This document shows positions 34,921 through 39,904 of a stretch of DNA of 39,911 nt, one piece after another. Location: NCBI GenBank assembly GCA_030622115.1, contig JAUXGN010000023.1, forward strand, positions 1-39,911, given 5' to 3'. The position numbers and the translations under genes were made by a program. How positions within the stretch are numbered: the first letter of the stretch is position 1; every line of letters begins with the position of its first letter. Origin of the DNA: Candidatus Eiseniibacteriota bacterium. Lineage in GTDB: Bacteria; Joyebacterota; Joyebacteria; Joyebacterales; Joyebacteraceae. The notes beneath the pieces are model-generated. The model did not search any database. It had not been told where the DNA came from and saw only the letters and a list, made by a program, of their open reading frames with translations.

Positions 34921-36867
34921 ATGATGGGTTTCAAGCGAACTCTGGCGGTACTCCTGATTGTCGGGGTCTTGATCGTAGTCCTGCTGGCCGGATGCACCAA
35001 GTTCAGCCCGGGCGACCCAGCAGAAAACATTCGCCCGGAGACGACGCTCTCCTTCGCACCGGATCAGGACGATAACGCGAGCTATCGTGTGAGGATGAAC
35101 TGGTTCGGGTGGGATCCCGACGGGAAGGTAGCTTACTACTGGACGAAGTGGGACACGATGGATTGGGTAAGGGTCGTGAGCACGGATAGTGTCTTCCTCG
35201 TCTCCGCGCATGCTGACAGCGTCGACTCGCTGAAGGGCTACGAGTACCACAGCTTCAGCGTGAAAGCCGTCGACAACGACGGAGACGAAGATCTGTCGCC
35301 GGAGAGCATATCCTTCACTGCTTTCACTCTGGTTCCTGATACGGATATCGTGCGAGGGCCGTCCGGTGTCACCGGACCGATGGTCACGTTCGAGTGGCTG
35401 GGTACGGACCGTGACGGCGTCATCGCATCCTACGCGTACAAGCTCTTCCGCTGGGAGATCTCGACACTTGAGTGGATTCAGGTCTCGAGCCAGGACAGCC
35501 TGGATGCTGACTGTACTGTTGCGAATTTCGGACCTCTGGCAGGATTGCACAGGTTTGAGGTCTGGTCGACCGACGATGCCGGGGCATCGGACCAGAGCCC
35601 CGCGGTCAGGGAGTTCACATGCAACCCGGATCTCGCCGGTCCCAAGCTGTACGCCTACTCCAACGTATTCGGCCTGAGGGTGTTCCGGGGACCAGTGTGG
35701 AACCCGGACTACAACCTACCGACTCCGATCTTCGCCGGAGAGAGGCTCACTTTCCGATGGTCAGCATCGGCTGAGTCATACGGTGGTCAGGTAATGGGGT
35801 ACCGCCACGCATACGACGACACGTCTACCTGGCCTGCATGGTCGGTCTACGACACGGAGTTCTCAGTCACTCCTACCCTCGGCAGGCATTCGCTCTTCAT
35901 CTCAGCCATCGACAATTCAAATGTCGTGACGCGAGGCAGATTCTACTTCGATGTCGTCGAGGCCACTCTCGATGAATTCATACTGATTGTCGATGATTGG
36001 GATGATGGTGAGGGCGACGTAGGTATGGCGACTGACGAAGAACGTAGCGGCTTCTGGAACGACCTGCTCTCGGGCTACGAGCACGAGCGTGTGGAGTGGC
36101 AGCCAGACCAGCATGAGCAAGGCAGCGGGCCAGAGCCACCGGATGTGGAGACCTTGAGGAGCGCCTCCACCGTGATCTGGTATACGGACCTGTGGCAAGA
36201 GACGCCGTCAGCAACGGAACTCGGCGATCTGTTCAATCCGCAACTGTCCGGGTACAACGCGCTGGCGGGCTACATGCGGGTCGGCGGAAACCTTATCCTC
36301 TCCGGATACAGATGCCTCGAGCAGATAACTCGCATGACCTACCCAATGGAGATCGCGGACACGGACACGACTGAGGGCGCTCGCTTCGTCAGAGACATAC
36401 TGCACATCAGCGCGGCAGACGCAAGCGGGACCCTTCCCAACAAGAACTCCCCGTGGAAGTACGGCTACTGCCTCTATGGCGACGTGCCGAGCGACGCCGG
36501 TGAATCCTACGGCTTCGAGCCCATGTATATCGACAGCGTGGGGCCGGGCGGCTACCCGGATCCCGGGAAGTGGTACATGTATGTGTTATCATACCCAAAC
36601 TACTCCCGCTGCGGTCTCCCCGATGTGGAGAAGCTCGAAACATATCTAGGTGCCGGTCTCGAGATCTACACCATCGATTCGTTTCTCAACATGAACTACG
36701 AAGGCATGACATCTTGCGTTCTCTACCTTTCGGGCGATGATCGCGGCAACACATGCTACTTCGGTCACCCGCTGTATTTCTTCCAGGCGGATCAGGTCGC
36801 GCCCAACTTCGACCGGATCATGGCGCTCTTTGGAGAGCAGAAGCTGACTGTGGCCGGGCAGGACTAG
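34921..36867 (+). CDS. Large lipoprotein: DPDG-type repeats plus uncharacterised C-terminal domain
   Basis: 648 aa. Lipobox LLAGC (Cys near 25). The N-terminal domain is clearly paralogous to the preceding protein: both start with a P-E/D-T-x-L-x-x-A-P stretch, then YRV, then WxGxDPDG (here WFGWDPDGKVAYYW). A second unit has WLGTDRDGVIASYAY. After a third beta domain, about residues 350-640 form a different module starting FILIVDDWDDGEGD, with LRSASTVIWYTDLW, GGNLILSGYR and a late GNTCYFGHPLYFF. The strand-DDWD opening and the GGxLILSG segment resemble type 1 glutamine-amidotransferase-like (ThuA/DUF4350-type) folds, but I see no catalytic Cys-His pair, so an enzyme role is not claimed. A strong ribosome site, GAGGAGGAG, precedes the ATG pair. 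Confidence 0.8.
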   Translation: MMGFKRTLAVLLIVGVLIVVLLAGCTKFSPGDPAENIRPETTLSFAPDQDDNASYRVRMNWFGWDPDGKVAYYWTKWDTMDWVRVVSTDSVFLVSAHADSVDSLKGYEYHSFSVKAVDNDGDEDLSPESISFTAFTLVPDTDIVRGPSGVTGPMVTFEWLGTDRDGVIASYAYKLFRWEISTLEWIQVSSQDSLDADCTVANFGPLAGLHRFEVWSTDDAGASDQSPAVREFTCNPDLAGPKLYAYSNVFGLRVFRGPVWNPDYNLPTPIFAGERLTFRWSASAESYGGQVMGYRHAYDDTSTWPAWSVYDTEFSVTPTLGRHSLFISAIDNSNVVTRGRFYFDVVEATLDEFILIVDDWDDGEGDVGMATDEERSGFWNDLLSGYEHERVEWQPDQHEQGSGPEPPDVETLRSASTVIWYTDLWQETPSATELGDLFNPQLSGYNALAGYMRVGGNLILSGYRCLEQITRMTYPMEIADTDTTEGARFVRDILHISAADASGTLPNKNSPWKYGYCLYGDVPSDAGESYGFEPMYIDSVGPGGYPDPGKWYMYVLSYPNYSRCGLPDVEKLETYLGAGLEIYTIDSFLNMNYEGMTSCVLYLSGDDRGNTCYFGHPLYFFQADQVAPNFDRIMALFGEQKLTVAGQD

Positions 36868-36890: not shown

Positions 36891-36929
36891 ACGGAACGCC
36901 TGGAGCTTCCAAAGCTCCAGGCGTTCCGT
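36891..36929 (+). terminator. Terminator of the lipoprotein pair (18-bp perfect inverted repeat)
   Basis: Arms 36891-36908 and 36912-36929 are perfectly complementary over 18 bp with loop CCA. It begins 24 bases after the stop of the second lipoprotein gene. The following bases (CGTTGT) are only mildly T-rich. Confidence 0.75.
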
Positions 36930-37016: not shown

Positions 37017-37150
37017 GCACAACAGCCGCACATCAGCTGCGAGCTAGGGCCGGCGCGGCAGGTGAAGGCGGCGTAGCCCCGGCGCGTGCTCCGCACGCGA
37101 TAGCAGTCAGCGTGACGGCCAAGCTCGGCGGCTGCATGCGCTAGTTAGGC
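37017..37150 (-). repeat. Candidate attC site (integron cassette recombination site)
   Basis: On the minus strand the site opens with GCCTAAC (37150-37144), which fits the R'' consensus RYYYAAC, and closes with G at 37023 plus TTGTGC. The arms, GCATGCAGCCGCCGAGCT and AGCTCGCAGCTGATGTGCGGCTG, are imperfectly complementary, with unpaired bases as in known attC sites. Between them is a variable region with its own six-pair hairpin (37084-37098). If the cassette is circularised, the closing G joins TTAGGC from 37795-37790, giving GTTAGGC, the exact complement of GCCTAAC. The total length of 134 bp is within the known attC range. Confidence 0.72.
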
Positions 37151-37795
37151 ATCGCGCCCTAGAACTCAACGCCGACCAAAGCCCAGATCGCTCTGGTACG
37201 GATGTACGGATCTTCCTCCACGACGTCAATGAGACCGACCGATAGGCGCGCTTCGACGAGGATCCGATTGTTCGGAGTCGCGATCGCGTAGCCGAGACCG
37301 ATGTTCGCTGCCACATCGAACTGACGGTAGCTCCATGAGCGCGACCCGCCCTCGCTTCGGTCGGCGTCGGGGCCCATGGGCTCAACTGGATCGTCGGATA
37401 CACGCAACCCAAGCTCTGGACCGAGCAAGACGTAGCCACCAGAGCGCGAAGCGGTGTCGGTCCATCGAAAGTATGGGCAGACCGTGAGGTAACGAGTTCG
37501 CTCCGAACCCTGCTCAAACTGCGCACCCTTCTCTACTAGTAGGACATCGAATCCAAATGATGCGCGCCTACTTGACTCCGAAGAGATCCCGGCACCGATG
37601 ACAAACTGGCTCAGGGAGCGTGCGTCCTCATGTGTCAGACGGCCCGCGCTGAAGCCAGCCTTCGCCTGTATGACCGCCGGTGCGTCGGTGACCCCGGCGC
37701 ACGCAATCGCAAGACCGACGAACGTGACGGCGAGACCGCGCGCGAGACCAGACACCTTGAGTACCTCCCTACCCATACTGGGCGCGTATGCCTAA
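37023..37795 (-). mobile_element. Candidate lone integron gene cassette (773 bp)
   Basis: The boundaries follow the G^TTRRRY cleavage rule: GTTAGGC at 37796-37790 is the leading junction and the degenerate GTTGTGC at 37023-37017 is the trailing one, as expected when a cassette inserts at a secondary site. Inside lies one gene in the cassette orientation, followed directly by the attC site. No integrase gene is in the window. The leading and trailing ends also share an outward-in match (GTTAGGCAT, then CGCGCCC), so a small element with terminal inverted repeats is the alternative; no target duplication is visible. Confidence 0.62.
37159..37755 (-). CDS. Small outer-membrane beta-barrel protein (cassette-borne)
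   Basis: 198 aa from the GTG at 37755, which has GGGAGG eight bases upstream; an ATG at 37776 is the alternative but would include the ribosome site. The signal peptide (LARGLAVTFVGLAIACAGV) is followed by alternating beta strands (ARRASFGFDVLLVEKGAQF, GGYVLLGPELGLRVSD, FDVAANIGLGYAIATPNNRI) and a C-terminal phenylalanine (WALVGVEF), typical of an outer-membrane barrel of about eight strands. The cysteine in IACAG could be read as a lipobox but the barrel pattern is stronger. No specific family is recognised. It lies entirely within the candidate gene cassette, its stop eight bases before the attC site. Confidence 0.72.
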   Translation of the reverse strand: MSGLARGLAVTFVGLAIACAGVTDAPAVIQAKAGFSAGRLTHEDARSLSQFVIGAGISSESSRRASFGFDVLLVEKGAQFEQGSERTRYLTVCPYFRWTDTASRSGGYVLLGPELGLRVSDDPVEPMGPDADRSEGGSRSWSYRQFDVAANIGLGYAIATPNNRILVEARLSVGLIDVVEEDPYIRTRAIWALVGVEF

Positions 37796-37806
37796 CTCCA
37801 AGTAGT

Positions 37807-37839
37807 AGCGCCCAAGGGCAGTAACTGCCCCTGGGCGCT
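37807..37839 (-). terminator. Terminator hairpin after the tandem PorV-like genes
   Basis: A 15-bp stem with a single A-C mismatch and a TAA loop, 30 bases after the stop at 37869. Neither strand shows a long T run. The cassette junction GTTAGGC follows eleven bases further on, so the putative insertion is just outside this transcription unit. Confidence 0.6.
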
Positions 37840-37868: not shown

Positions 37869-38849
37869 CTAGAAGATGAACGTCACCGAGAATCTATCAA
37901 TGTGATCCAGATTCCCCATATCCGCGTAAGCGTAGTCGACACGAATCGACGCCTCGCTGGTCGGAAAGAGCAGGCCGGCTCCGAGTGTCAGTCCCTCTTC
38001 ATCGTAGTTCAAGCGGTAACCGGCACGCCCAAACAGGAAAAGGTTGCCCTTGTTGAATGTGTACTCGGTCCCAGCGCTCATGCGATTCGCCCCGCCGGGC
38101 GTTCTCTTGTAATCCGCCGCCACGGTGACGCGGTGAGTCACGATATCAAAGACCCTCATCGAAGCGCCAGCTCTATAGGTGGTCGGCATCGGAAATTCGT
38201 CCCCGAAGCCGCTCTCGGAACCCGTTCTGGCCCACTGGTTCGCAGGACCGAGGTTCATCACAGAGGCTCCCACACGTAGATTCCGCACGCGGGTTTCATA
38301 GAGAACACCAAGATCTGCGATCACACCCTCACAGAACGCGTCCGCCATCCCCAAGTGGTACCACCGAACAGTCGCGCCGGCAGAAAGACCATCGCCGAAA
38401 TCCCAGCAGTAGCTACCTCCGAACGCCATGTCCCCCGCATCGACCTTTGCTCCAGTACCGATTCCCAGCTCGCTATCGGGATCGTAATACTCGGTCTTCT
38501 CGGAGTACGGATTCATCTGCATCACGGCCCAACTGAACGCGAAAGTACCAGGCAGAACGCTGTGATGGAATCCGTAGCTCACGTGCTGGTATGAGATATC
38601 CCCAGGCCAGGTGGACGTTTCGATGTGGATCTCGCTCGCCTCCATCAGCCTGAGTCCCGCGGGATTGTAGAAGACGGTGAGTGCATCGTCGGCGAGTCCC
38701 GTAAACGCGCCTCCCATCCCGATCTGCCTCGCACCTGCATCCACCTCGAGAAAACTGGCAAGATGCGTCCCGGCTCCACCGGCGAAGCCCGCCTGTGGAA
38801 CGCAGATCAGCAGTGATAGCGCGCCTATCGCAAGCAGGTGTCGTCGCAA
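37869..38849 (-). CDS. PorV/PorQ-family outer-membrane protein
   Basis: 326 aa from a TTG at 38849, chosen because AAGGAG lies seven bases upstream and the resulting N-terminus (LRRHLLAIGALSLLICVPQAGFA) is a proper signal peptide; the longer frame to 38918 runs upstream without one. Family marks are FLEVDAGARQIGMGGAFTGL followed by ALTVFYNPAGL. The rest is beta strands ending SVTFIF. The C-terminal third (YRLNYDEEGLTLGAGLLF) closely parallels the next gene upstream. In T9SS organisms PorV shuttles cargo to the sorting enzyme at the outer membrane; whether this paralogue does so is unknown. Confidence 0.85.
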   Translation of the reverse strand: MRRHLLAIGALSLLICVPQAGFAGGAGTHLASFLEVDAGARQIGMGGAFTGLADDALTVFYNPAGLRLMEASEIHIETSTWPGDISYQHVSYGFHHSVLPGTFAFSWAVMQMNPYSEKTEYYDPDSELGIGTGAKVDAGDMAFGGSYCWDFGDGLSAGATVRWYHLGMADAFCEGVIADLGVLYETRVRNLRVGASVMNLGPANQWARTGSESGFGDEFPMPTTYRAGASMRVFDIVTHRVTVAADYKRTPGGANRMSAGTEYTFNKGNLFLFGRAGYRLNYDEEGLTLGAGLLFPTSEASIRVDYAYADMGNLDHIDRFSVTFIF

Positions 38850-38932
38850 GTAGTATCTCCTTTCAACATCCCCCGGTCGAAGACACCCAGAAGGGGGATA
38901 CTTCACTTGGCGGAACAATCGGGTCTGGAGTA

Positions 38933-39904
38933 TCAGAAGGCAACTGTCATCCCCACGCGGTGAATGGCTCCAAGATAGCCAAAGTCCACGTAGCTGTAGT
39001 CAACTCCGATCCAACCGAGAGAACCAACGAAGACCCTTGCCCCACCTCCAGCTGAAAATGTCTCCTCATCGTAGTTCATCTTGTAGCCGACGCGCGCGAA
39101 GTACATCTCATTGAGAGCATACTCCGCCCCCACATTGATCTTCTCCGATGTATCGGAGGGATGCCTGAACTCGGCTGCGACCGTCACCCTCTGCCCCGGT
39201 GTGTCGATAACCCTCATCGAGACACCGAACTTGAACGTCGCCGGCATCGGAACATCATCGTTAATGTAGGTGGCGCCCGGGCCCATATTCTGGATTGCCA
39301 GGCCTATCTTCAGGGAACGGAAACCCGTGTCGTAGAGAGTCCCGAAGTCCATCAGGAGTCCCTCCACGTAGTAGTCGTCCAGCCCCTCAATTCCCAGCAC
39401 AGAGAGGTCGCCGAGGCTTGAGTGAACCCACTTCAGCGTACCGCCGGCCGAAAACTTGTCGGTGAAGATCCTGGTGTAGGTAACACCAACGGCCAGGTCG
39501 CTGCACTGAAAATCAACACCAACACCCTCTGGGACATCCGCAGTCCTCACGGCCATGGGATCCATGGAGACCGATGTCACGCTGATGCCGAGGACGCCTG
39601 GAATGAAACCGGGACGCATTGCGTAGCCGAAATACTGATGGGCGATATCCGCCGGCCAGGTCGCATACGTGAAAAGAGCCGTCGGCTTGGTCACAAACCT
39701 CAGCCCCGCGGGGTTCCAGTAGAGCGACTCGATCCCCTCTACCGCTCCGACCATTGCCTCACCCATCGCCGTCCCGCGAGCCCCCGCTCCGATCTCCAGG
39801 AACTGAAAGCCGACTGTGCCGACCTTCTCGAACATCTCTGTGGCTGACGCCGGCACCGCCAGAACACCCACAGCGAGCAGGGCCAGTAGAAGCTTCCGAG
39901 TCAA
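38933..39904 (-). CDS. PorV/PorQ-family outer-membrane protein
   Basis: 323 aa. A signal peptide (TRKLLLALLAVGVLAVPASA) then FLEIGAGARGTAMGEAMVGA and SLYWNPAGL, a barrel of the usual length, and a C-terminal phenylalanine (VGMTVAF). It is a tandem paralogue of the preceding entry: YKMNYDEETFSAGGGARVF here matches YRLNYDEEGLTLGAGLLF there. The start codon is a TTG at 39904 with GGAG only three bases upstream; because the frame stays open to the window edge, a start outside the window is possible, although the signal peptide looks complete. The intergenic gap to the next gene is 83 bases. Confidence 0.85.
   Translation of the reverse strand: MTRKLLLALLAVGVLAVPASATEMFEKVGTVGFQFLEIGAGARGTAMGEAMVGAVEGIESLYWNPAGLRFVTKPTALFTYATWPADIAHQYFGYAMRPGFIPGVLGISVTSVSMDPMAVRTADVPEGVGVDFQCSDLAVGVTYTRIFTDKFSAGGTLKWVHSSLGDLSVLGIEGLDDYYVEGLLMDFGTLYDTGFRSLKIGLAIQNMGPGATYINDDVPMPATFKFGVSMRVIDTPGQRVTVAAEFRHPSDTSEKINVGAEYALNEMYFARVGYKMNYDEETFSAGGGARVFVGSLGWIGVDYSYVDFGYLGAIHRVGMTVAF

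Follow-up and report, generated by a model that had tools for sequence, protein, structure and literature searches.

Gene cassettes of integrons carry attC sites, in which the R'' box has the form RYYYAAC and the R' box the form GTTRRRY. Insertion of cassettes by integron integrases at secondary sites, termed attG, has been reported (Recchia 1994 and Loot et al. 2024 Nat Microbiol, as cited in PMC12444791, PMC11023631 and PMC12901181). The junctions left by IntI follow a rule whereby the cassette G comes to lie by host TT and the host G by cassette TT, at a GNT core (PMC10127599, PMC4618277). By default, IntegronFinder 2 calls CALINs from two attC sites upwards, and single sites can be true ones (PMC9024848).

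The locus described here lies in a 39,911-nucleotide stretch of a Candidatus Eiseniibacteriota genome (G000), the whole of which we call the window, and very probably represents a single integron gene cassette that was inserted by an integron integrase at an ordinary intergenic site of the chromosome. As in attG insertions, a whole cassette with its attC stands at a G|TT position that is neither attI nor attC, with a GNT core and no duplication. Experimental attG integrations in E. coli were spread over many loci, according to PMC12444791, whereas here a second, different cassette occupies the same base in a sister species. The window also goes beyond the laboratory attG cases in being natural, in coming from an uncultured phylum and in having sister species in which the site is empty. 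Like sedentary chromosomal integrons and CALINs, the lineage has a TIGR02249-type IntI, attC arrays and attC sites that are alike within the lineage; unlike CALINs, the window holds one attC only. The window cassette is an unusually clean case of the already known attG insertions, while what is new is a cassette at the identical base in a related genome (G004) and a lone cassette in G002 whose empty site in G003 is precise to the base.

Structure of the locus

The elements of the locus are as follows (positions in the window).

34921-36867, plus strand: left-flank host gene, 648 aa, no Pfam family; syntenic in relatives
36891-36929: perfect, terminator-like 18-bp hairpin that follows the left host gene, without a T-tract; some 90 bp short of the insertion point
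37017-37023, minus strand: R' position, cassette G plus host TTGTGC giving GTTGTGC (GCACAAC on the plus strand); from sequence, with the same junction in G004
37017-37150, minus strand: attC in its chromosomal form (R'' GCCTAAC to host-hybrid R' GTTGTGC), 134 nt; from covariance models and covariation
37023-37795, minus strand: integrated cassette of 773 bp; limits set by the R boxes and by aligning the joined flanks with relatives
37135, minus strand: unpaired G at attC position 16, the extrahelical G of the L'' box equivalent; invariant in 13 sites and bulged in the consensus fold (definition in PMC2727003)
37144-37150, minus strand: R'' box GCCTAAC (GTTAGGC on the plus strand); from sequence
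37159-37755, minus strand: cassette gene (open reading frame), 198 aa from GTG 37755 (205 aa from ATG 37776); ribosome-binding site GGGAGG at 37764-37769
37780-37796, minus strand: left cassette end GTTAGGCATACGCGCCC, complementary at 16/17 nt to the R'' surroundings (37144-37159)
37807-37839: terminator-like hairpin after the right host gene, 11 bp past the cassette's other end; kept in relatives without the cassette
37869-38918, minus strand: right-flank host gene, PorV/PorQ family; conserved in relatives
38933-39904, minus strand: second host gene of the PorV/PorQ family, by family match

On the minus strand, GTTAGGC comes first, then some 40 nt of leader containing GGGAGG, one gene, and the 134-nt imperfect palindrome, which opens with GCCTAAC and ends with GTTGTGC; boxes, single gene and inverted repeat are as the first-pass annotation had read them in proposing a lone cassette with an attC site. 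The leading GTTAGGC occupies minus-strand 37796-37790 (GCCTAAC on the plus strand, 37790-37796) at the upstream end of the cassette gene. The cassette itself, one gene with attC on its 3' side that is absent from relatives, runs on this strand from TTAGGC to a final G, between a host G (37796) and a host TT (37022-37021). Its R'' box fits RYYYAAC, and the R' of the circle, being the left cassette end GTTAGGC, fits GTTRRRY; once circularised, the site reads GCGGCTG|TTAGGC at this point.

The two ends of the cassette match over more than the 7-nt box, as GTTAGGCATACGCGCCC is the reverse complement of the R'' side, GTTAGGCATCGCGCCC, at 16/17 positions. Paired with each other they reach an anchored score of 14, compared with a maximum of 11 against the R'' ends of 49 other cassettes, and they are therefore the ends of one cassette. 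Across 49 array cassettes of the lineage (L135-L165), the uninterrupted run of end matching, counted where both cassette ends begin GTT, has a median of 12 nt and often reaches 15-17, and a score of 12 was attained by 63% of true end pairs versus 2% of shuffled pairings. This complementarity (about 12-17 nt) exceeds the 9-11 nt given for most cassettes (PMC2727003). It is also greater than in the plasmid integron of Gemmatirosa kalamazoonensis (NZ_CP007129), whose IntI is 53.5% identical to that of G002 and whose cassette ends are complementary over shorter lengths (median anchored score 9 versus 13 in the window lineage).

Insertion site and empty sites in relatives

Across most of the family, the flanking host genes are kept side by side. 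In G001, G002 and G003, which belong to the same genus, both flanks stand adjacent across short intergenic DNA that holds the two hairpins and lacks the cassette, providing the empty sites for which the first-pass annotation had recommended comparing relatives. Removal of 37023-37795 joins the flanks of the window as CCTCCCGCACAA^CTCCAAGTAGTAGCGCCC, which aligns to G002 (CTTCCCGCACGATGCCACACGGAAACGCCC) without a gap across the junction. The empty junction is CCCGCACAACTCC, the joined host sequence at the site is TACTTGGAGTTGTGCGGG, and the G|TT target on the minus strand is TACTTGGAG|TTGTGCGGG. Relative to G002, the insertion is exact at the GNT core (G|TT), with target bases neither duplicated nor lost, and the junction obeys the published IntI rule (PMC10127599, PMC4618277). 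The earlier reading of the far GTTGTGC as a cassette G joined to host TTGTGC agrees with such an insertion and with the empty site in G002. Neither the cassette gene nor its protein was found in any of 40 other genomes. The suggestion that the insertion point lies just after a terminator held in part: the 18-bp hairpin is there, but the terminator scanner accepted no T-tract at either flanking hairpin.

An attG-like consensus taken from the lone sites, GGAG|TTNGGC, occurs in the window no less often than chance predicts and was left unused as evidence. In G008 (L044, 2067-3280), which has a full intI, an unrelated gene occupies the same intergenic space; we rejected it as another cassette because these models find no attC there.

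The attC site

The palindrome was scored with covariance models built from attC sites of the lineage. Model R1, whose training set includes the window site, gives it 101.9 bits, and R2, built only from sites of the sister species G001 and G002 with no G000 or G004 site, gives 88.9 bits (E 8.8e-17), such that a check against an attC model, of the kind that the first-pass annotation proposed, returned a strong match. This is the only significant attC match across the window, and its 134 nt lie within the attC length range of 57-142 nt. BLASTN detects matches to the palindrome at about 18 other places in G000, which, together with the left-out model score, indicates that it is more than a chance inverted repeat. 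As an external control, both R1 and R2 recognise the array of attC sites that follows intI on the Gemmatirosa kalamazoonensis plasmid.

Alignment of 13 attC sites yields one consensus hairpin, in which 92.4% of cells are paired versus 19-42% with the partners slid, and in which 8 pairs have changed on both sides; no shuffle was equally good on these measures. An extrahelical G of the L'' box has been described for attC sites (PMC2727003), and its counterpart is listed above. Conversely, single-sequence fold energy is ordinary for the GC content (z -0.26 and -0.86) and, not being discriminating in GC-rich DNA, was dropped as proof of an attC. The predicted fold, and with it the foldability that had been claimed, is supported by comparison, through compensatory changes, and not by energy.

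Integrase and cassette arrays in the lineage

The first-pass annotation had likened the locus to single attC sites in genomes without an integrase, and this comparison has to be corrected. G000 (98 contigs, 100% complete) carries a partial intI and about 26 model matches to attC in all, many of them in arrays spaced by single genes, such as a 6.4-kb array with five attC sites on contig C59 (L014). The intI, of which 202 aa are present, lies on contig C42, whose end falls inside the gene, and the IntI thus broken off scores 226.7 bits against TIGR02249 (cut-off 265). It stands behind a gene that we take from its sequence to be ispG and a GNAT gene, the same locus as the full-length intI of G002. 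The G002 IntI has 361 aa and scores 436 bits to TIGR02249, and among solved structures it is closest to IntI4 (2a3v, E 5.6e-86), in an alignment that spans residues 38-349 and includes the integron-specific region. The window itself has no TIGR02249 match, and no intI or attI adjoins the cassette; a complete integron is not present at the locus.

IntI matches with E < 1e-60 occur in 9 of the 20 genomes of the phylum examined (8 over the curated cut-off), and the TIGR02249 cut-off is exceeded in G001, G002 and six other genomes of the family. Judged by these predicted integrases, integrons are a common feature of this small phylum of Candidatus Eisenbacteria type. The lineage is uncultured, and the deposits of its named relatives are MAGs labelled Candidatus Eisenbacteria or unclassified bacterium; we found no paper that mentions Eisenbacteria together with integrons, in keeping with the initial remark that integrons are little described there.

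Every genome compared is a metagenome assembly, in which contigs that carry arrays may be assigned to the wrong bin. A 4.3-kb array stretch of G000 (C88, L021, 3799-8143) is 99.95% identical to G002 contig C29 (L153), unlike the host genes at the window locus, which are 87% identical between the two genomes; this near-identity reflects either a recent transfer or a mis-binned contig. The window contig is steadily 80-91% similar to each same-genus relative.

The cassette gene and its expression

Translation of the cassette gene probably starts at the GTG at 37755 behind GGGAGG, rather than at the ATG at 37776. The protein has a signal peptide-like N-terminus and a weak match to PF13568, an outer-membrane beta-barrel family, at 27.5 bits, barely over the cut-off of 27. 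As far as sequence can tell, the product is a probable secreted or outer-membrane protein, in line with the outer-membrane protein originally predicted. PHROGs and NCBIfam gave no match to the cassette gene, and an AlphaFold prediction of the protein alone was unusable (mean pLDDT 39), with the C-terminal half predicted as long strands. Other cassette genes of G000, on contigs C59 (L014) and C39 (L172), look secreted or outer-membrane by eye, and a cargo bias towards such proteins in G000 cassettes is possible.

A sigma-70 scan, which may not suit this phylum, found no promoter for the cassette gene. The gene is co-directional with the upstream PorV-family genes and has its own ribosome-binding site, and it would probably be expressed by read-through from those genes or from an unrecognised promoter.

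A different cassette at the same base and further lone cassettes

G004 is the closest relative at the locus (right flank 90.7%). Its cassette, about 920 bp long (C191, L041, 3362-4287), is a different one bounded by the same host bases as in the window, and the gene product has a TonB C-terminal domain. The bodies of the G000 and G004 cassettes are unrelated DNA and each cassette has its own complementary ends, while their attC sites are 88-89% identical, are sisters in a 93-site tree (0.87 support) and have common motifs absent from all other sites of the set. High attC identity was rejected as proof of one insertion, since 228 of the 2838 site pairs of the genus are at least as alike.

We regard it as a serious possibility, while leaning somewhat against it, that G000 and G004 received their cassettes separately at one attG hot spot, a reading compatible with insertion by an integron integrase. 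The unrelated bodies with their own matching ends and the unexceptional attC identity favour it, as does the attC pair being less alike than the intergenic flanks (89% vs 96%, p 0.04), whereas the sister relationship of the attC sites and their unique motifs suggest one ancestral insertion with exchange of gene parts. A more specific form of such exchange, which we consider speculative and rather improbable, is that both genomes inherited the attC and the gene before it was replaced: a new cassette would have entered in front of the old one, and the old gene would then have been deleted by homologous recombination of the two attC cores, leaving the new gene with its own ends and the old attC. 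If this were true, attG would work as a persistent docking site for single cassettes, and cassettes could acquire hybrid attC sites, which bears on the open question of cassette origin.

A second lone cassette, of about 330 bp with a 60-aa ORF and an attC of 91.7 bits, is present in G002 (C224, L167, 3957-4288), inserted directly before a hairpin as at the window site. In G003 (C9, L192, at about 1423) its flanks stand joined at that site as ACAACCGGAG|TTAGGCTGGTT (ACCGGAG|TTAGGC), and the insertion is therefore exact to the base. A third lone attC cassette, in G003 (C276, L169, 802-1627), has matching ends and a left end, GTTAGGG, with 0 mismatches. Off-array insertion thereby appears to recur in the genus. 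Separately, part of the neighbouring HIT-like gene is repeated some 3.5 kb further along contig C276.

Proposed mechanism and alternative explanations

Because G000 itself possesses an intI, along with arrays whose attC sites resemble this one, the cassette was most likely dispersed from the resident integron. The resident IntI of the lineage would, most likely, have taken up a circular cassette whose attC folds in its bottom strand (the plus strand of the window), a choice of strand carried over from the known system. The folded attC would then recombine with the double-stranded G|TT target between two convergent genes and their hairpins, supplying a gene that has its own ribosome-binding site and whose product is probably secreted or located in the outer membrane. 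We infer the resident IntI as agent, the strand used, present mobility and expression; integrase activity, strand and mobility are drawn from the known system. Since the chromosomal attC is retained, the cassette should still be excisable or exchangeable today.

Arrays shrink by attC x attC excision, and the site could be the remnant of a longer array from which all cassettes but one were lost. An ancestral A-B array with alternative losses would explain the different single cassettes in G000 and G004, and degenerate attC sites do occur elsewhere in G000 (e.g. on C44). We nonetheless judge this unlikely, as the 40-kb window holds no second attC or fragment of one, the right junction GTTGTGC is non-attC host sequence, and the joined flanks match G002 without extra bases. 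A chimeric join of an array contig to host sequence deserves mention in a MAG, given that assemblies break at attC repeats and many array contigs end in attC. It is, however, highly improbable where syntenic host genes continue on both sides of the cassette, the join coincides exactly with the G|TT base, and these junctions recur with another cassette between them in G004, a MAG obtained independently (contig of 4.4 kb).

The palindrome is a dispersed repeat, as would be expected if it were an inverted repeat of another kind (REP/BIME, MITE or structured RNA) that flanks the gene by chance. We find this hardly credible, and the attC model match and the cassette arrays have already refuted it in large part. 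Moreover, Rfam gives no match to any family, the repeats lie in arrays spaced by single genes, their GTTRRRY/RYYYAAC variants agree from one end of a cassette to the other, and the extrahelical G is invariant. The repeats are also confined to the intI-bearing family, with R1 finding no match in 21 genomes of other families. None of the refuting outcomes named by the first-pass annotation occurred, as the attC model matched, compensatory changes back the fold, and relatives share both flanks but not the gene. Its interpretation is supported, and insertion of a single cassette by an integron integrase is the explanation that we retain.

Significance

Off-array cassette insertion has been known mainly from laboratory work with IntI1. 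The present lineage offers a natural case: the genome carries an integrase, the site is filled in some sister species and empty in others, the junctions are precise to the base, two different cassettes stand at one position, and there is a second, independent example elsewhere. Survey thresholds of two attC sites would skip lone sites such as these, and genes dispersed by integrons may therefore be undercounted. In this lineage, integrons scatter genes outside their usual arrays in nature.
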